Assembly: GCF_003144195.1 (NCBI RefSeq)
Contig: NW_020290001.1
Coordinates: forward strand, 548,717-612,716
Source of the DNA: Ceraceosorus guamensis
Taxonomy: Eukaryota > Basidiomycota > Exobasidiomycetes > Ceraceosorales > Ceraceosoraceae
Length of the DNA: 64,000 nt
Direction of reading: 5' to 3'
Numbering within the stretch: position 1 is the stretch's first letter; each line of letters opens with the position of its first letter. Shown here one piece after another: positions 7,812-40,606 of the stretch. The notes beneath the pieces were generated by a model. It did not search any database. It had not been told where the DNA came from and saw only the letters and a list, made by a program, of their open reading frames with translations. The position numbers were made by a program, and so were the translations under genes.

Positions 7812-10536
<2,725 letters not shown>

Positions 10537-15919: not shown

Positions 15920-16740
15920 TTAGCGTCCTCCATGAGTAGCCCCAGCGCTCGCCTGGAATGCGCCAGACTTTCCATCGTTGGTGGAGGAAAAGCCGTCCTT
16001 GGCGGAGGCGGCTTGCAGGTCGCCCTTTTGAAGGATCTGCAAGACGACGTCGGTATCGTTGTGCGTACCGAAAAAGTTGTCCAACTGCGTGCGAGAGATG
16101 GGAGAAAAGAAGGGAAAAGCGGTGAGCCATGGACAGTGAATGAGCCTTTTTGTTGGAGGGTATGCGCACGTCTTGCTTGCTAGGCTTGCCCATGATTCCT
16201 TGAGCGCCTTGTCCAGTGTGGAAAATTTGGAATGCTGTGTCGCAAAGGAGACCGGGCTGATCAGCTGTGTGAAAGCAAAGTGACTTGTGCACAGAGCGCA
16301 AGACTCACAGTCTACGACATCGGCAAGAGGAATGGTGCTGCATAAAGATGAGACGGGGGCAGGCATCAGCTCTGCCGTCTTGGGTGGAACAAGATCAGAA
16401 TGCAAGCAGCTTTCATGGGGCGCTCACGTGTCTGTGAAGATGGACATGTGAGGAAACTGATAAGCAAGAGGGTAAGCGCTTACGACTGGCCAGCCTCTGC
16501 TCACCTCCAGCTTTCCACTTCTTGTACTGCAGGAACATGGAAAGGACGAAGGGGCAACATGGGCGTCAGCACAGAGCACGAGCACGAGCACGCCCACACC
16601 CTGCTCGCCAGCAGACAGGCGTTTGCGCAACCTTCTGAGCCCTCCGCGTAGCTCACCTCTTCGCCATTGACGATGACCTGGAAGAGGTCGTTGGCGTTAT
16701 GCTCGGGGTGGTAGACGACCTTGTGGAAAGACTTGGGCAT
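15920..16740 (-). CDS. RTC3: Small SBDS-domain protein (Rtc3-like), six exons including a 4-nt exon
   Basis: Exons 16657–16740, 16505–16526, 16428–16431, 16309–16337, 16170–16234 and 15920–16084 give 122 aa, close to the roughly 110 aa of yeast Rtc3. The fold is the N-terminal domain of the ribosome maturation factor SBDS, without its other domains. Visible landmarks are HKVVYHPEHNANDLFQVIVN, then KKWKAGDTTIPLADVVDSF, then QIFHTGQGAQGIMGKPSK and LDNFFGTHNDTDVVLQIL. The third exon is only ACAC. It is flanked by CACAG and GTGAGC. Leaving it out shifts the frame before the conserved IPLxDVV block, so it is needed. The second exon is 22 nt. Yeast Rtc3 is linked to RNA metabolism and telomere capping; the role here is inferred. 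Confidence 0.85.
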
Positions 16741-29953: not shown

Positions 29954-30918
29954 GCCCGTGTGTGGCACCCGATCATCAAGGTGTGCGCAGCAAGTTTGAA
30001 AGCGTAGCCCATAAAGGTGGTCTGACAAAGCGAATGGCATCAACGATGGATGTTGGAGGGTGTGTCACTCTGCATTCGTGCAACTGAATGCTGCCGGCTT
30101 TTTACTCAATCGCGATGTCTGCTCGCCCGTTTTACTTGCTGCTGGCTGTGGCATTCGTGATTGTGGTGGCGCTGGACGGCGCGCGTGGAAGGCAAACGTC
30201 ATCAGCTAGTCTGACGAGAGAGTCTTGAGTGCATGGTCTCGGTACGGTGATTCACTCACACTGTACAACACGCACGTGATGGGTCTTTCAGCGTCGGAAT
30301 GCGGGTCTCAATTCGGCAGGCCTTGTTTTGGGGAGGGGGCGCGGGAGAGTCCCGCTCGAGTCGAGCGTCGCGTGCGTGCTGCGTGCGCCCATGCAGCCCT
30401 CCCATGCACATCGTGATCGATCGAGGCGCCGCGAGGCGGGGTGCGTGAACGCACTCGCGAGTCGCGACTGATGCTGCAGCAGCATATGCAAGCAGCAGAA
30501 GAACATCACTCGCGTGCCTTTGCGCGGGTTCTGACCGCTGTTCTCTGATGGCGGCACAGCTGCTAGCAACCTAGCTGTCTCCCACACAACAACCTTCAAT
30601 TTGGCGCTCGAATCTGAATCGTGGATGAGGCCCCGCATTTCTTCAAAAGTTGGGAGCCATTGCGAGCCTCAACCACACCGCGTCAGCTCACGACCATCTG
30701 TGCAAGGAGCTTGGCCACAGCGCATCAGAGGCGAGTCAGACGAAGACGAAGTCGCGTTCAGCAGATCGACCTCATTTAGACTCGCCCAGCACTCGTGATC
30801 GTGAGGCTACTCCCATCCAAGCTCCTTACCATCGGCACTCGCATGTCCCGCACGCGATGCCGTCGCTGACACGATAGCAAGCCCAAGAGCACGCAAACTA
30901 AACGAGCGCATTACAACG
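29954..30918. other. Intergenic region
   Basis: This 965-bp gap separates PST2 and the first lipase, both on the plus strand. GC-rich, with a direct TGCTGCAGCAGCATATGC-like palindromic patch near 30471–30490. No gene or clear TATA box is seen. Confidence 0.35.
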
Positions 30919-33870
30919 ATGCACCCTCGCCTGATTCGATTGGCCTATTCAAGATGTAGGAGGCGAACGCGCGGCCTGGGCAAGGCTTTCGGCTCGAGTG
31001 GAGCTTTTGCTCTGCTGCATAGCGCTGGTGGTGCCAAAGCTACCCAGACATCCCCCGTGCAGTCTCCAAGCAAGACAATGAAGGTGGAGGTGGAGTCCAA
31101 GACGCAAGTGACACGCGCTGCTGAAGCCATCGACGAGATGGCTTTGCCGCTCTACACGCTAGCTTCGCCGTCCCAGGGAACTGCCGACTTTTTGAAGTGG
31201 TGGTACGCTACACGACTAGGCGGTTCGTTTGCCGGCTCAGAAGAAGCCGACGGAAGCGCATCGCAGAATTTGGAGAGTACGCAAATCCAGCGAACATTGT
31301 CTGATCAAGCTTTGCTGAACGGCAGCGAAACCAGCCGGCACAAGACTCATGCCAAGGCTCCTGCATCGGCAACACCGCAAGACGATTCGAACACACGCGC
31401 TGGCCCTTCAACGGCTGGTGCTACGCACAAAGACATGAAGCTCAAGGAGACAGAGCCGCCAGCGAAGCCAACCGAGAATCACATCAACGAACTCATGAGC
31501 TTGGGATCATTGTACGAGCCAATCCGAAGGCCGCGCCATCCGATCGTCTTGTTGCATGGCCTGGGTGGCTTCGACAAACGAGGATTGTTTCTCGGCCTCG
31601 AGATTCACTACTGGGCGACAGTGCTTGATATCCTGCGCAAGAAGATTGGAGCAGACGTCATCGTAAAGGCGGTACCGGGAGCTGGATCGATCAAGGATAG
31701 GGCAAACACGCTGCATCAGTTTCTGTGCACGCCCGAAGCTGGCGTGCTCGGCAAAAAGGTGAATCTGGTGGCGCACAGCATGGGTGGTCTGGATGCTAGA
31801 CACCTCATCACCAACATCAAGCCCACCGAATACGAGCCCATCAGCTTGACCACGCTCAGCACGCCCCACCGGGGTAGCCCATTCATGGATTGGTGCAATG
31901 CCAATGTTGGAGTCGGCAACGATGCGATCGAGGAGGCGGTGCAGCAGGCTCGTCAGAGCGGTGCGTTAGCCGACTCATCACACCTACCAAAGGTGCCGTA
32001 CACTCTCAAAACGCCCATCTTTGTGAAGCCCAAGAAGACCAAAGGAAAGGAGGGAGCAAAGAGCGAGGCGGAGAAAGAGTCGAATGCCCTCGACTCACGA
32101 AGATCTGGGGGCGATCAGAGCAATGTCGAGCTGGATCCCAGCTTTAAAGAAAAGGTTGACGAGAAGCTCTGTGAGGCTGTGGAGACTGTCAAAGCAACTA
32201 CACAGAGCGCCGGGATTGGCGACACTGCAGACTCAGACTCTGCAAAGACGAAGGCAAAAACAAAGGGCAAGCCTAATGAAGGAAAGCCGGGCGGTATCAG
32301 CTTGCCCTTCAGTATGAGTACGTTCACAAATGCTCTATCAATGCTGGGGGGCAGCTTCTCGTCGTACATGCTCTCTGTGCTTGATCAGCCGGCCTACGCG
32401 ATGCTTAGCACCAAGTACATGACGGAAGTGTTCAACCCTTCCACCCCAGACTCGCCACGCGTCCAGTACTACTCTGTCGCAGCACGTACGCGCAGCATAC
32501 AACCTTGGCATCCACTCTGGCTGCCCAAGCTGATCCTTGATGCAGCGGCCGAAAGTCGTACGGGCGGTGCAGAGACGGACGGCAGTGGTGATGCATTAGG
32601 AGGCAAGCTGCAAGGCAATGATGGATTGGTTAGCGTCCAGAGTGCAAGATGGGGTCACTTTCTGGGTGTCATTGACGGTTGCGATCACTGGGATCTTCGT
32701 GGTGGAGGTGGTCCTAGATGGGGCGCTGGAGAGAAGATCAACTACGCTACTGGCAAGCCTTGGGAGGGAAGCACATCAGGGTCAGAACGTCTGGATGACG
32801 CGCCTAGAAAGGCTGCGAAAGCAGAGGCTGCAAAGACCGAGGGTTCCAGCTGGATCGATATCAATCGGCTGCTTGATGTCTTCACCAAGAGCAAGAAAGA
32901 GCCGGATGACAACGCCCTAGTAGATACAAAGGCAAGAGACACCGCGACAGCCAGCAAAGCAGAGGACAGGGAGGCCGCAGACAGCGTTGGAGATTCTAAG
33001 CCTACGTCGGAAGGGCCCAGCTCCTTTCTAGAGCACTACGCCGCCATAGCTGCGCCTGACGATGCAGGAATGCTAGATACTGCCCGGCCTTGGCATTCGA
33101 GCGAGCTTGCAAGCATGTCGAGAGATGCTGCAGGTGCCGGTGACTCGGGCATTGTATCAGAAGTAGCGGAATGGATCTCCGAGCGCCTTCCACAGCGGGA
33201 CGAGCGTAGACGAGCGCAGGCGGAGAGGGCGGCAGATGCTCAAGATGCTCTGGCCGAAGCAAGCCGAGTGACTAGCCAAGCCGCTTTTGCCTACCTTGCC
33301 GGCAGCAATGGAGAAGATCATGACCCTGGTCATACCGAGCCAGCACGCTTGACGCTGGCGAGCACCCCAACGTGGAGCGAAATACGTTCTGCTCCGCCCG
33401 AAGCTGTGCTCATTGGACAGCCGCCGCCAATTCCTAGTCCCAGATCGCTAGGAGGCTCACCAATAATGGAGTCCAGTGGTGCGAGCGCCAGCCCCCGACT
33501 GAAGCGTGATGCGCAGTGGGAAGCTTCCCTGGATCAAAATGCTGCTTCGCGCGAGCTGCGTCGAGAATTGGCCTGGCATCGGGCAGAAAGGGCTAGAAGA
33601 TTTGCCATTCAATACCCATTGTCGGGAGATGCAGCCCTGACGGATGCTGCTGCCTCGATGAGCAGCTTCCCCGCTACGTCTGCAGTACCCAACCGTCGCG
33701 CGCCCGTCGCTGGCGACAGTGCGGATCTGGACTGGGACGCGCAGGCAAAGCGCAGACCGAGCAAGGAAGCCTCGAAGAAGGAGTCTGAGAAGGAGAAACG
33801 TAGACAGAGCGATCAGCTTGAGCGATTCTGGCTCGCTGTATGTTTGCACCTGTACCAACAAGGACACTGA
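30919..33870 (+). CDS. TGL2-like triacylglycerol lipase, long form (983 aa)
   Basis: A single exon. The alpha/beta-hydrolase core starts at about residue 206 with HPIVLLHGLGGFD; the oxyanion HG and the nucleophile elbow AHSMGGLDAR (Ser about 285) are intact. TTLSTPHRGSPF follows, the acid is in NDGLVS (about 565) and the His in GCDHWD (about 589). This layout matches yeast Tgl2, a mitochondrial lipase related to Pseudomonas lipases. The N-terminus is Arg-rich without acidic residues (MHPRLIRLAYSRCRRRTRGL), which fits mitochondrial import. About 150 residues are inserted between the TPHRGS motif and the acid, and about 390 disordered residues follow the core, far beyond usual Tgl2 length. A GTATGT donor near the stop could splice to a later exon, but that would run into the opposite-strand P450, so I reject it. 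It is paralogous to the lipase at 37838. Confidence 0.9.
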   Translation: MHPRLIRLAYSRCRRRTRGLGKAFGSSGAFALLHSAGGAKATQTSPVQSPSKTMKVEVESKTQVTRAAEAIDEMALPLYTLASPSQGTADFLKWWYATRLGGSFAGSEEADGSASQNLESTQIQRTLSDQALLNGSETSRHKTHAKAPASATPQDDSNTRAGPSTAGATHKDMKLKETEPPAKPTENHINELMSLGSLYEPIRRPRHPIVLLHGLGGFDKRGLFLGLEIHYWATVLDILRKKIGADVIVKAVPGAGSIKDRANTLHQFLCTPEAGVLGKKVNLVAHSMGGLDARHLITNIKPTEYEPISLTTLSTPHRGSPFMDWCNANVGVGNDAIEEAVQQARQSGALADSSHLPKVPYTLKTPIFVKPKKTKGKEGAKSEAEKESNALDSRRSGGDQSNVELDPSFKEKVDEKLCEAVETVKATTQSAGIGDTADSDSAKTKAKTKGKPNEGKPGGISLPFSMSTFTNALSMLGGSFSSYMLSVLDQPAYAMLSTKYMTEVFNPSTPDSPRVQYYSVAARTRSIQPWHPLWLPKLILDAAAESRTGGAETDGSGDALGGKLQGNDGLVSVQSARWGHFLGVIDGCDHWDLRGGGGPRWGAGEKINYATGKPWEGSTSGSERLDDAPRKAAKAEAAKTEGSSWIDINRLLDVFTKSKKEPDDNALVDTKARDTATASKAEDREAADSVGDSKPTSEGPSSFLEHYAAIAAPDDAGMLDTARPWHSSELASMSRDAAGAGDSGIVSEVAEWISERLPQRDERRRAQAERAADAQDALAEASRVTSQAAFAYLAGSNGEDHDPGHTEPARLTLASTPTWSEIRSAPPEAVLIGQPPPIPSPRSLGGSPIMESSGASASPRLKRDAQWEASLDQNAASRELRRELAWHRAERARRFAIQYPLSGDAALTDAAASMSSFPATSAVPNRRAPVAGDSADLDWDAQAKRRPSKEASKKESEKEKRRQSDQLERFWLAVCLHLYQQGH

Positions 33871-34045: not shown

Positions 34046-36520
34046 CTACGCTTGAACCCTGCGCACCATCAGCGGCGCTTGTTCGCTGTCGACGGTCCAG
34101 TCCCAAGGCCTGGTGACCAGCCAACGTTTCGGCGTGACAGGTCGACGTCCTTTCTCAAAATGCAGCGTGCTAGTCAGGATGGACAGGAGCGCCTTCATCT
34201 CGGATACTGCAAAGCGATTGCCTGAAGAAGCAGAATGGATCATGAGCGAAAGGTTAGATTGCGCCGCTTCCAACTCCGCATGTTCGCCAAACTCACCTAT
34301 GCAGGCGCGCGGACCCATCATAAACGCGACTCCACCAGTGCGAGACCACCGCTTGGCTCCTTCCATTGCCCAAGAGCCATCGCTTCTTCTCGCCTCGATC
34401 CAGCGCTCAGGCCTGAACTTGTCCGCGTCCTCTCCCCACAATTCAGGATCTCTGCCGATCGCGGTAAGCGGGATGATCAGCATCAACCCCTTCTCCACTC
34501 GCACGCCTGAGCGCGGCACATTGGGCGAAGCTAGAGGATCCACCGGAATGACGTCGTCCTCGCTAGCAACACGCGAAGACGTGTGGACTGTCAAGAGGGA
34601 CATACACTTGAGCTGCAGGATCACCACGATCCGGCCTACTTCTGCTAGAGCGACTCACCTGCTGGCTGCAACCGCAAGACCTCTCGAACGACGGCGTCCA
34701 GGTACGGCAGTGTTTCCAGCTCGTCTACAGTCAGCTCCCTCTCAAGGTCTCCATACGCATCGGTATGCGTATCTATGTCCTCTGTTGCTAGCCAAGAGCC
34801 AGCAACAGGGCTGAGACCGAGTTCTGTACGTTTAGCCCGAAGCTCCTCGCGCATCTTTTCTTGGCAGGCGGAATTTTCTGCCAAATAAAGCAGGGTCCAA
34901 GTGAGCTGGGTGGAGGTGGTTTCAAAGCCTGCAAGCATGAACGTCGATACTTGGGCGACGACTTCTTCATCTGCGAGCGTGGCCTTTTGCAAGGACATTG
35001 GCGATTCTGGAACGCTTGACCAGCGAGAGAAGGGCGAGCGAGGCGAAACTGGTGAAGGACTGTGCGACCCCTGCCTTTTCTCTCCCGTTGCCCCTGAGTC
35101 ATCCGCTGCCCGAGCTTGCAGAAACGCTTCGGGAATGTGACTTTCACTTGCATCGCGAGCGGCCTGTCTGGATAAGGCATTCGCTCGCATCATGCTTGCA
35201 AGCAAGTCTGCCCTTTCACCTCGATACGTTGCAGCCGATGAGCCAGCTCCGCCGTCCACGCGCAACAACTTGTCGGCATCTGCGCTCGCAGCATCCAAAT
35301 CTGCCTTGGCATCTTCGACAACTTTCTCGGCTTGCTCTCGAAGGTGCTTTTGCGCCCTGCCAAAGGTGCGGCTCTGTGTGCCAATGGGGATCCATACCAG
35401 GGTAGGAAAGAACATGATGGCAATGTCCAGCAACATGCGCCACTGCGAGTTGCTGGATGCTAGCTGCAGCGCTTGGTCATATGCACGAACGAGCGGGTTG
35501 GAGCTGGCAGACTTCTCCCTCTCGTTGTCCAGCCAAGTGGGCTCCTTCTCGAAGCCTGGTCGTATGAGCTCAGTATCTTCCAGGCACTCCAGACGAAGCC
35601 CAAAAGCGGCATGCCCTAGCACGTCCAGTGTAGCTCGAGAGCTTGCTCTTAGCATGTCGATGAGGACACCTTGATCAGACGCAGTCCCCGCGCGTTTGGT
35701 TCTGGCAGTCCGCAGCTCCTTGTCCACATGTTGCAGCAACTTGTGGCGGAGGCGCCGAGCATAGAAGCTGCGGGGAGAGGTTTTTCAAGGCGGACAAGAT
35801 GAGTCCTCGAAGTGACTACCAGGTCGCAGCGCCCTTGCTAGCTGCACTCACATGAATACCGGACCCAGTCGCTTGATGGACGCAGGCGACATTCCAGCTT
35901 CGATGGCCCTACGTTGTCTCTTGTGCACATCTCCTTCGCTCACTAGCAGACCCGCACCCATAAGGCTTGTCAGAACCCTAGCCGTATCCACGCCCTTGGG
36001 ATACGCGTAAGGACGCGAGACCAGAATGTGCCTGAGAGCTACGTGATCCGTCACCACCAAGCGCTTTTCCTGTGCGAAATGTTGCATCGGAGCAGATCAG
36101 TCTGCGCAGGCAAGCATGTGGTCGGGCGAGCCGCGGAGCCCGACGAGATGGTACCAGGACAGCTGTCACTCACTCCCATGAACGCCGACATCTTCGTCAT
36201 GCCTCCATACTTTTGGCTCCATTTGAGGAACAAGTCGCAGAGATCCTCGTCCTGCGTCGATGGGCGAAGCACGTCGGTCAGCAGGCAAGGCGGGCGAGCA
36301 AATTTCAGCCCTTCGCGCCACGACTCACTGCGAAGTCGGCCCAATTGCCGAGGAAGAAGGAAGGATTGTCAGGTCCTGGCACGCCTGGAAGCCATCTCCG
36401 CCATCTGAGATATCGCCAGCCGACGCTATAGACGACATAGACGCAGAGGATTACAGTCGTCAAGGCGGACGCTTGTAAGAGGCCGAGTAACGCCTCGAGC
36501 GCGACTCGCTGGCTGATCAT
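34046..36520 (-). CDS. Cytochrome P450 monooxygenase, unusually long
   Basis: Six exons, 36329–36520, 36174–36251, 35852–36069, 34659–35767, 34297–34587 and 34046–34221, give 687 aa. It should be a haem enzyme anchored in the ER by the N-terminal segment ALTTVILCVYVVYSVGW, followed by the hinge PGVPGP. Visible P450 motifs are the I-helix AGFETTSTQLTW (about 440–450), the K-helix ExxR in VREVLRL, the PERF-type FRPERW, and the haem loop FMMGPRACIG with Cys about 628. Extra length comes from a Ser/Pro-rich insert before the I-helix. The family is not recognised; it has the look of CYP4/CYP5-like fungal fatty-acid or terpenoid hydroxylases, which is inference. It lies between two lipase genes and is convergent with the first, 175 bp apart. 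Confidence 0.93.
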
Positions 36521-37837
36521 CTTGCTCGAGGATGACGAGGCTTGAATGAGGGGTGGAAACTTCGCATCGCTTACATGAAGCGAGATTTATGCCTACTTAA
36601 GCATCTTGCGAGGGAGTCGCTGTCCAGTATCGGAGCAAGGATGGTCGACTGCTTGTTCATGATCACTGAGAAATTGGGACGCTCGAGCCTAATCGCAGCA
36701 CTTTGCGGAGACTTGGGCGCTCCATGTCTGCGCACCAGCAGCTTGAACAAAGCCCGTGCCACCACCACATTTAGAGCTTTGATTGTCGGAGTCGGACACG
36801 CCAATCCATGACAAGAAGCTTGCAGGTGCAGGAACCGCCGGGCTTGATCTGCAGGACATCCTACCTGTAGCCTTCGCGCTCTTGAACCCCCATCGTCTTG
36901 CATATCCATCCTGCTTTGCACGGAAGACGGCTGGGGGATCATTCATGCTGGTCGTTGTGGGCCGTCAGAGCCCGCATCGAGCCTCCATACACGTTGTGAA
37001 GCGCTTCTGTTTCACCTGGGAAAGTGATGGTGTCCGGCCGCTCTTCACTGCGCGCATCAGAGGCTAGAGTGTAGGTGCATTCCTTTGTGCTGGCCCCTGC
37101 ACGCGTGTAGATGCAGGTGTCAACCGCATGATTTGGGCACGAAGGTCCTTGTGAGGCACTTTGCATCCCTGTGCGATGCTCTCTCACCGCCCCTCCCACA
37201 GTGAAGTCATGCTGCGACGATTTTGCTGTCTCTGCTTTGACGTGATGGCGCGTGGCCCTTCAAGAGAAGTCCATGCTCTCCAAGACATGTCGTTCTCGAG
37301 AGCCTGCGCATGAGGTGAATGCGGTCGTCACTGCTGCTGGGACGGCCCCTCGCGCGTCTATGCTGGCCAAAATTGGCACAGCCTACAGGGACACGTGACT
37401 GGCACATTCACCTTGACTCCGCGATCGATGCATGCATGACGTTTGCGCGGCTCAGCGAGTCAAGAGTCTTGAGTGGAGTCGTGAGTCTGAACCCGGCAGG
37501 CAGCAGCTGCTGCATCCTAGCTGCTGCCATGGACGTCTCGGCGGCTCTCCACACCTGCTGCTGGCTCGTATCCAAGCTAGTCCGTTCATTTCATGGATCG
37601 ACAGCCTGCTGGTCGCACCGGCTTGGCGCTCATCAGAGCTTTCAACCTACGCCGCTGCGGCGTTTTGTACCGCGAGTCAAGACTTGCAAGCGTGACGCTC
37701 TCCTTCGAGGCGATTTCTTGATCACCGCGTGCCGAGTCGGGTGAATTTGAGTCAGAAGAGCCTCGTCAGAGCTCCGCCTACTCTACCTTGGCCCCCTGCG
37801 ACAACATCATCCTCACCGGCCCCAACACACCAGTCCC
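36521..37837. promoter_or_regulatory. Divergent upstream region of the P450 and second lipase
   Basis: This 1.3-kb stretch has no supported gene. It includes the motif variant AGTCGTGAGTC at 37477–37487 and several CAGCTGCTG clusters. Short open frames on both strands lack family features. Confidence 0.4.
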
Positions 37838-40606
37838 ATGCTGAGCATCGCGCGTACGCATTGCAGGCGCCAAGCAAGACACCTCAAGGCTTCTCGAATG
37901 CTCCCTCAGTCCTGGCAAGCAGCATTTGGAGGAACGAGAGCTGCTGAACAAGCAGCTGCGCACACGCAGCAAGTCTCGAGCCAAGAGGCTTCCGACGATG
38001 GACTAGCAGTGGAGCAGAGAGAAGCTAGGGAGGCGAGCGCCGAATTACCTTCGCAGCATGATGCCATGCACTCTCTCAGCAGTCGTGGCGCCGCGGGGGC
38101 GGCGGGACAGTCGGCGTCAATGAGTGCGCCGCGAGAAATTGTCGATCTTGACGATACCCGGCAGAGGGCCTCCTTTGAGCTCGCAACCTATCGAGCATCG
38201 CACGATGGCGTCTCTCAAGCCACGCAGAATCTGGTCCACACAACGCACGACGGGCCAATCTATCGAAGCACTGATCCTTCTGGTCCATTGCGCTCCAAGG
38301 TGCAGACGGCCAAGCGACGAAGTTCGAGCCCCGTCTCGGCACGTCGGTCATCTGAAAGTGTGCCGAGAAATCGTGAGGGGCCGTTGGAGCGGAGGAGTCC
38401 AGAGGATCAATCCGGGACCAATGAGCTGCGTCAAGCTCTAGCAGAGGCCAAGATGGACCCCTTGCCCTCTGTCATTTCTGCTCCTGCGCAAGCGCACATT
38501 GCTCCCGACAAGAGTCCGCAAAGCCGAGCGCAAACCACTTTACAGGCAAGCGGTCGCGCGGTGGCAGCTCAAGCCGAGCGGCCAGGACCAGCAGGGAACG
38601 GTCGGACAAGCATGCCTCACGTTCCGCCGAGCTGGCTCGGTGCCTTGGGCTTCGTGGCGTCCAGCAGCGCAGACAGCTCGAGCGAGAGGACGCATAGACG
38701 GCAAACATCTCAAGCATCTGCAGGGTCCATGGAAGGTAACGATAGAGTCGAAAAGCGAGCGTCCCCGGCCGCGAAAGCAGGAACATCAGCTCCATCCCTC
38801 CTTCGTTCCCTCTCTTCTCACAGCAGTCGAGGCTACGCTGCTCCAACTCTGGGACTGAACAGGCATGGCCTCGTTACCACGAGCGTTGGCTCTCCTGGTA
38901 CTTCCACGAGCGCTGTAGGGCCGTCAAACGCTTCACCCGAGATACCATCTGCCGCTCACACGGCCATATCTGCCAGACAATTCGGAAGCTTGGCCCGCAG
39001 TGGCTCACCAGCCCACGATGAATCGAGAGGTGCATGGAGCGGAGAGGCAGCAGTCAGGCGATTCTCAGCAAACGCAAATCAAACATACCTGGACGACGTG
39101 GAAGACGTGCCCTCCTTCTGGGACTTTGAGTTGAGCAGTGATGCTGATCACACAGCCGGCGTAAATCCTCAGCAGGCATCGACAACGCATGGCAAGGAGC
39201 AGACAGGATTTGTTGGCGCCATGTCGAGGTTACGAACCGCTATGGGCTTGCAACCTCCGGGCACCAATGATTGGTGGACCTCACATCGAGTCACCCTGGA
39301 AAATGCGCTGGCAAAGGCGTCGGAAGCAGCTCAATCCACGTCCTCCGGGATGATGACGGCGGCAAAGAAAGGAGAGGAGGAGACTGCAAAGACCGGCAAA
39401 GCTGCACGGGACACGTACGACTCTGATGCGGTGGAGATCACGCCGCTGCGAGAGCAAAAGACTTGGGAGATACCCAAACATCCCATCGTGCTAGCACATG
39501 GCTTGTTCGGTTTCTCTTCGTTGGCTTTGGGACCCGTCACCATCAACTATTGGCGAGGCATCTCGGAAATGCTGCAGAAGAGAGGCACCGAATTCATCGT
39601 GGCTCGTGTACCAGCAAGCGCGACGATTGAAGAGAGGGCAGAAGCGTTGAGGGACATCATAGAGAAGGAGTTTCCCAATCGCGACATTTCACTCATTGGA
39701 CATAGCATGGGAGGACTGGATTGTCGATACTTGATCTCGAGGTTGGAGAACAAGTCGTTTCGAGTGAGATCTCTGACTACCATTGCTACGCCACATCGAG
39801 GCTCTAGCTTTGCAGACTTCATAATACAGCAAGTGATTGGCGAAGAGAATATGCCGCGAGCACTCGCCCTCGTCAAGGCTCTTTCCATTCCTGGAGGTGG
39901 AGGAGCTTTCAAACAGCTGCAGCTAGGTCCCATGCAGAAATTCAACGAAGCGGTGAGCGGGCTACGTGGTTCGGCGAAGCGTCCCAGCTATACATGTTCA
40001 CGCCCCTTATTGCGAGATGGCTCACAGACACCCAACGTGGACGGCGTCAAATGTAAGCTCTTCTTATGGCAATGACCGAGCGTCGTGGTCTCTGAATTTT
40101 GTGCAATGTTCTTTCTCGACCGTCTGCTAGATTTCTCTTACGGAGCAGCCTTCCAGCCTGGCATGTTTAGCGAATGGCGCGTGCCCTTTGGGATAATCTA
40201 CGAGCAAGAGGGAGCCAATGATGGCCTGGTCAGCGTCAAGAGCTCCAAGTGGGGCGAATACGCAGGCACGCTCGGGGCCAACCACTTGGAACTCATTGGT
40301 TAGTTCGCTCGGATTGCTCACATCTGGCTAATTCAATGGCCCTGAAATTCTCCTCTGTTATGCTATCCAGGCTGGGTCAACGCCGTCAAGTCGCAGTGGC
40401 AGCGCATGACTGGTGGAGAAGAACCTTTTGACCCAAACAGGTCAGTCTCGCAGCAGATCCTCATTTCGCGCAATGACCTGCTCGTCTTGCTGGGTGCAGC
40501 ATCGCTAGTCCGAGCCAACGAATTCTGAAGCTCTGTTCTGCTTTCCTTCAACGCATACAGGCTCTATCTACAAATCTGCGACGACCTCGCTCGGGAAGGC
40601 TTCTGA
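37838..40606 (+). CDS. TGL2-like triacylglycerol lipase, second paralogue (807 aa)
   Basis: Five exons, 37838–39952, 40028–40052, 40131–40298, 40371–40440 and 40561–40606, give 807 aa. The hydrolase core begins at about residue 547: HPIVLAHGLFGFSSLAL, the elbow GHSMGGLDCR (Ser about 622), ATPHRGSSFADF, then after splicing FNEATPNVDGVKYFSYGAAF, the acid in GANDGLVS and the His in GANHLEL. The last part matches bacterial and Tgl2-type lipases closely. The first 500 residues are disordered, Ser/Ala-rich, with an Arg-rich leader that could target mitochondria. Exon 2 is only 25 nt. The gene shares fold and motifs with the lipase at 30919 but has its disordered region on the opposite side of the core, so this is an old duplication. 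Confidence 0.9.

Follow-up and report, generated by a model that had tools for sequence, protein, structure and literature searches.

A predicted four-nucleotide exon in an apparent SNOR/Rtc3 orthologue of Ceraceosorus guamensis

The apparent SNOR/Rtc3 gene of Ceraceosorus guamensis is predicted to give an mRNA that carries an exon of only four nucleotides, ACAC, which is most likely included at all times, and we put the probability of this reading at about 0.86. The gene lies on the minus strand of the window, the whole stretch of 64,000 nucleotides (64 kb) that was analysed, and runs through six exons from an ATG at 16740 to a stop at 15920 (Table 1). All five introns of this model have GT-AG borders, and the product that includes ACAC is a protein of 122 amino acids with one SBDS domain. 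On the minus strand the four bases stand between CTTCACAG and GTGAGCGC, at the positions where an earlier note on this DNA had placed them, and the lengths which that note gave for the flanking introns and exons are correct. Codon usage favours the frame of the model over the other two in all five larger exons, and the codon log-odds of the spliced coding sequence are positive (30.3 bits). The downstream part of the gene has a property of its own: from 16337 to 15920 (minus strand), exons 4 to 6 and introns 4 and 5 make up one open frame, with 159 nt of intron and no stop, and a joint retention of these two introns would be translatable.

Table 1. Exons and introns of the six-exon model, and one competing intron (positions in the window).
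Feature	Position	Strand	Description
Exon 1	16657..16740	-	84 nt, ATG to GAAGAG; donor GTGAGC
Intron 1	16527..16656	-	130 nt, GTGAGC...CTGCAG; CTGAC branch-like motif ~40 nt upstream of the acceptor
Exon 2	16505..16526	-	22 nt, YKKWKAG and the first base of Asp36; phase-1 end
Intron 2	16432..16504	-	73 nt, GTGAGC...CTTCACAG
Predicted micro-exon ACAC	16428..16431	-	4 nt; completes Asp36 and begins Thr37
Intron 3	16338..16427	-	90 nt, GTGAGC...ATGCAG; CTGAT branch-like motif ~28 nt upstream of the acceptor
Exon 4	16309..16337	-	29 nt, TIPLADVVD and the first base of Ser47; phase-2 entry
Intron 4	16235..16308	-	74 nt, GTGAGT...ACACAG; homology to S. pombe IVDSFQVF spans the junction
Exon 5	16170..16234	-	65 nt, SFQIFHTGQGAQGIMGKPSKQD
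Intron 5	16085..16169	-	85 nt, GTGCGC...ACGCAG
Exon 6	15920..16084	-	165 nt, TAA stop
Rival intron	16372..16504	-	133 nt, donor 16504, acceptor GGCAG; in-frame exon from 16371

Within the 122-residue protein, the Pfam family SBDS_N covers residues 6-95 with 79.0 bits (cut-off 24.6), and no other Pfam family rises above its own cut-off. The best match in the PDB is S. pombe Rtc3 (C21C3.19; 9phc and 9rvu), found with 50 bits and E 3e-12 by a query without Asp68, a residue away from the micro-exon region, and the best SBDS entry in the PDB follows far behind, at 14.7 bits and E 0.27 with the same query. Alignment of this query, again without Asp68, gives 43% identity to a segment of 84 residues from S. 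pombe Rtc3, and a profile made from that segment and the window protein (without Asp68) finds budding-yeast Rtc3 (1NYN) with E 3.3e-10. The earlier description of the gene as RTC3-like with an SBDS domain is thus borne out, S. pombe Rtc3 being the nearest structure, and on these comparisons the gene is apparently orthologous to fission-yeast Rtc3/SNOR. Scans of two non-fungal collections, viral_contigs and genome_contigs, confirmed no relative. It had also been held that SBDS/Rtc3 proteins conserve an IPLxxVVxSF block; this is so in fission yeast, where the block reads VPLTEIVDSF, but it is weak in budding-yeast Rtc3 (IGKLSEVVELF).

In fission yeast, Rtc3 (SPBC21C3.19) has been named SNOR and is described as a protein that sits on the ribosomes of dormant cells and promotes the restart of translation (PMC13345908). 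The contacts listed for it involve E43, D46, K68, Q69, E72, N73, H96, R97 and the C-terminal tail, with uL16, rRNA, the exit tunnel or eIF5A as partners. E43 and D46 touch uL16, and the double mutant of these two residues is reported to bind the ribosome better, while the basic C-terminal tail (H96, R97 and G100) enters the exit tunnel (PMC13345908). At the places of SNOR E43, D46, K68, Q69, E72 and N73, the window protein has Asp43, Asp46, Lys66, Gln67, Asp70 and Asn71, so that four of these six contact residues are identical (D46, K68, Q69 and N73), and E43 and E72 are both replaced by Asp. The two proteins are alike in having an SBDS domain, a similar size and several of the ribosome-contact residues described for SNOR (PMC13345908). 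They differ in the C-terminal part, which in the window protein is longer, of other sequence and outside the alignments that cover SNOR, and in the four-base exon predicted for the gene.

The micro-exon precedes the codons of all the named SNOR contacts, and a functional protein is therefore possible only if the reading frame is restored at this point. Exons 1 and 2 amount to 106 nt, which means that exon 2 ends one base into a codon, and exon 4 opens C-ACC-ATT, so two codon bases are needed ahead of it. As claimed in the earlier note, a phase-1 end thus faces a phase-2 entry with one base modulo 3 missing between them, and ACAC restores the frame by writing GAC ACC, that is Asp36-Thr37. When exon 2 is joined directly to exon 4, the frame shifts and a stop follows after 43 amino acids; this join, rejected as a candidate, has an SBDS_N score of 14.1 bits, against 79.0 with ACAC. 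The frame of the conserved protein depends on ACAC. A gene in decay, with exons 2 and 4 simply out of frame and a truncated product, is another reading of this junction, but here every exon is open, the codon log-odds are positive, and the functional residues past the junction are retained, which makes decay extremely improbable.

Homology demands a change of frame at this junction, and alone it cannot separate an addition of four nucleotides from an addition of one. A protein one residue shorter scores 81.3 bits with SBDS_N, slightly above the protein with ACAC, and in the alignment S. pombe Rtc3 has one residue fewer just before Asp36. With ACAC included, the stretch from Trp to VV needs no gap in the profile alignment with budding-yeast Rtc3 (1NYN). 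These lengths bear on another explanation, in which one base is lacking near the ends of exons 2 and 4, through an assembly gap or a real deletion, and ACAC is intronic, in a single intron of about 167 nt. The shorter protein, with its higher score and its agreement in length with S. pombe Rtc3, is what a one-base gap would give, and length permits a single long intron, since the gene-finder models include 51 introns, of which 8 exceed 167 nt. Budding-yeast Rtc3, however, has the longer length, which speaks against the gap, and a further argument comes from the splice sites themselves.

The sites were scored with donor and acceptor matrices from 36 introns of other genes in the window, each of at most 160 nt, with this gene left out; these training introns are predicted, not observed, and all percentiles are to be read against them. 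The donor of intron 2 (5.33) stands at the 58th percentile of the 36, and its acceptor, which immediately precedes ACAC, at the 97th (4.12); for intron 3, the donor is at the 58th percentile and the acceptor at the 28th. The donor after ACAC is GTGAGC, a hexamer that is found in 8 of the 36 training introns (GTGAGT in 15) and that also starts introns 1 and 2. As the borders of an ultra-short exon (1-15 nt), these AG and GT sites resemble those of the organism's own predicted introns, and on both strands of the 64-kb window ACAC is the only place where an AG and a GT separated by 1-10 nt are both this good. A CTRAY branch motif is missing from intron 2; 20 of the 36 training introns also lack one within 8-60 nt of the acceptor. 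The RNA fold across 16309-16526 is nothing unusual (z = -0.65), and no tRNA or Rfam family was detected at the gathering threshold in the window. An origin of the micro-exon through duplication of a flanking intron was considered and rejected, the similarity of introns 2 and 3 being 13.0 against a shuffle mean of 13.4.

Chance expectation was drawn from two null sets: the 167 nt between exons 2 and 4, put through 5000 dinucleotide shuffles, and 3137 overlapping real tiles of the same length with the gene excluded. A frame-restoring AG..GT pair enclosing 1-10 nt, of any quality, occurs in 3000 of the 5000 shuffles and in 1937 of the 3137 tiles; it is so common that the bare pattern proves nothing. 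When both sites have to reach at least the 25th percentile, 47 of the 5000 shuffles and 28 of the 3137 tiles hold such a pair, and the numbers are 18 and 8 for sites at least as good as those of the median predicted intron. At the observed quality or above for both sites there is none in either set, and a summed site score at least equal to the observed one is reached by no shuffle and by two tiles. A one-base gap would need an error within about ten bases and, independently of it, a frame-restoring pair of strong sites created by chance, for which the shuffles give 0 of 5000 at the observed quality and 18 of 5000 at the median. Because the error and the accidental pair are both required, the gap is judged unlikely.

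Other ways of connecting exons 2 and 4 were enumerated: direct joining, in-frame acceptors, alternative GT and GC donors, and middle exons, the last defined by an AG before, a GT or GC after, a length of 1 modulo 3 and flanking introns of at least about 30 nt. There are 12 middle-exon candidates, five of which introduce stops. Among the seven that are stop-free, only ACAC and one exon of 19 nt (acceptor GAAAG) have a GT donor, and the remainder depend on GC donors. Three of the stop-free candidates share an acceptor at 16422 that scores below all 36 training introns; further acceptors among the candidates are at 16371, at the 14th percentile, and at 16409. In-frame structures also exist that do without a middle exon. 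Rejected among the candidates were the donor at 16518 (SBDS_N 61.0 bits, with a site score of -7.06, under all 36 training introns), the acceptor at 16311 (53.0 bits) and the skipping of ACAC and exon 4 together (50.9 bits).

The most credible of the structures without a middle exon uses the acceptor at 16371, and would make a single intron of 133 nt, with Asp-Thr replaced by 12 residues (ELMPAPVSSLCS). The result is in frame and free of stops, the borders are GT-AG, a CTGAT branch-like motif lies 24 nt upstream, and the gene finder falls back on this site at an intron penalty of 13 when exons shorter than 5 nt are forbidden. Yet the acceptor is weak (14th percentile of the 36), the protein scores 67.7 bits, 11.3 bits worse than the 79.0 obtained with ACAC, and the 12-residue insertion is absent from both S. 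pombe and S. cerevisiae Rtc3. Its use would also leave unused the best-scoring of the acceptors examined in the region. This candidate was rejected as well, and we hold it to be very unlikely.

A simple dynamic-programming gene finder that permits exons of any length placed the four-nucleotide exon here; every other exon in the 18 genes that were kept has at least 22 nt. For a rerun, this gene was removed from the training set of the splice matrices, and intron penalties of 13, 15, 17 and 19 were used. Exons of 84, 22 and 4 nt were chosen at the first three of these values: the exact 84-22-4-29-65-165 structure was obtained at 13, and at 15 and 17 introns 4 and 5 were left unspliced. At 19 no gene was called. 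Barring exons shorter than 5 nt costs 8.7, 5.9 and 4.5 bits at penalties of 13, 15 and 17, respectively, and the structures chosen instead at 15 and 17 differ from the fall-back at 13. Since the penalties were set by hand, the gene finder serves as a consistency check and not as proof. Frame, splice-site quality, homology and the ab initio gene model nevertheless all point to ACAC as a spliced-in exon, and the proposal made in the earlier note is thus the best reading of this junction.

Several features elsewhere in the 64-kb window may be recorded here. At 7815-10045 (minus strand), neighbouring open frames hold a spermidine synthase domain and, after it, saccharopine dehydrogenase domains, an arrangement reminiscent of a fused gene known in basidiomycetes. 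On the plus strand, at 30805-33870 and 37751-40303, there are two genes for lipase-like alpha/beta hydrolases, a few kb from each other; both carry long stretches beyond the matched hydrolase region, and they are possibly old duplicates. Between them, at 34648-35784 (minus strand), there is a partial cytochrome P450 with three matched stretches and a serine/proline-rich segment in its translation.

How such a small exon could be spliced may be considered from what is said of short introns. Their recognition is described as taking place over the intron itself, with U1 at the donor pairing with U2AF/U2 at the acceptor; the efficiency of this intron-wise recognition is described as independent of exon length, and Prp40 as required for exons too small for splicing enhancers (PMC8624252). 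At 73 and 90 nt, the predicted introns are consistent with recognition of this kind. A study in S. pombe by Romfo and colleagues is cited in the same connection. In the case of ACAC, each short flanking intron with its good GT-AG signals would allow the sites to pair across the intron (intron definition), and the exon itself would not have to be seen by the spliceosome. U1 on the downstream donor and U2AF on the upstream acceptor would probably be unable to sit together on four bases. As such side-by-side recognition is sterically unlikely, the two introns would be removed one after the other, and once the first was gone, ACAC would form the edge of a normal-sized exon for the second. That ACAC is actually spliced in, that its introns leave in turn and that it is constantly included is what we infer from the DNA. 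The earlier note had also suggested a recursive event, which does not suit this case. Recursive sites consist of an AG directly followed by a GT, with no base kept between them, and they are described mostly from very long introns (PMC13149111), whereas ACAC would leave four bases in the mRNA, both of its introns are short and the whole stretch is just 167 nt long; the term is therefore unfit for ACAC.

ACAC and exon 4 (16431-16428 and 16337-16309, minus strand) together make an in-frame cassette of 33 nt, or 11 codons. A transcript lacking both would stay in frame and lose residues 36-46, which hold the places of SNOR E43 and D46, and its product is a poor fit to the family (50.9 bits). ACAC might accordingly be imagined as a control point, with regulated skipping either of ACAC alone, giving the 43-residue truncation, or of ACAC with exon 4, giving the in-frame isoform. 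We consider this role distinctly unlikely. If it were true, stress- or glucose-dependent splicing could set the amount of the dormancy factor or its contacts with the ribosome.

A four-nucleotide exon is unusual and easily overlooked by annotation, yet there are precedents in fungi with 1, 5 and 6 nt. The closest in logic is the exon of a single nucleotide in Fusarium CYP621A, for which RNA reads from two species and 20 orthologues are reported (PMC12940212). There, as with ACAC, an exon ending in phase 1 faces one that must be entered in phase 2, and the frame is restored by a very small exon with GT-AG borders; both cases are fungal and fall within a conserved motif. CYP621A differs in the length of the exon (1 nt and not 4), encodes a cytochrome P450 and comes from an ascomycete genus (PMC12940212). 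In basidiomycetous yeasts, the smallest exons tabulated for bglA have 5 nt in Sirobasidium magnum and 6 nt in Rhodotorula minuta (PMC9142197). These too are tiny basidiomycete exons among short introns, in another gene and in other species (PMC9142197). The micro-exons described for the P450 genes of Phanerochaete share the same setting of a basidiomycete with short introns, but they code for 2-10 amino acids, the shortest having 6 bp (PMC1184071).

Larger or more distant cases complete the comparison. In Trichoderma Xlr2, a fungal micro-exon is likewise required for the long form of the protein, but it has 20 nt and acts as a glucose-dependent switch (PMC11121469). Micro-exons of 1-15 nt have been collected in plants, where one modelled cluster, in RECQ3, has 4 nt and phase 2; like ACAC they are ultra-short and often absent from annotation, but that study had RNA-seq and conservation over several species to build on (PMC8831610). 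Among the matches listed in a search of open-access full text, no report of an exon this short in a smut was found.

If real, ACAC would rank with the shortest exons that have been proposed for basidiomycetes, and it would offer a clean natural test of the shortest exon that a fungal spliceosome tolerates. The SNOR gene is reported from 87% of the fungal genomes surveyed (PMC13345908), so a wide comparison is possible. In genomes that share such an exon, automatic models of SNOR/Rtc3 may be truncated or may hold a false insertion.
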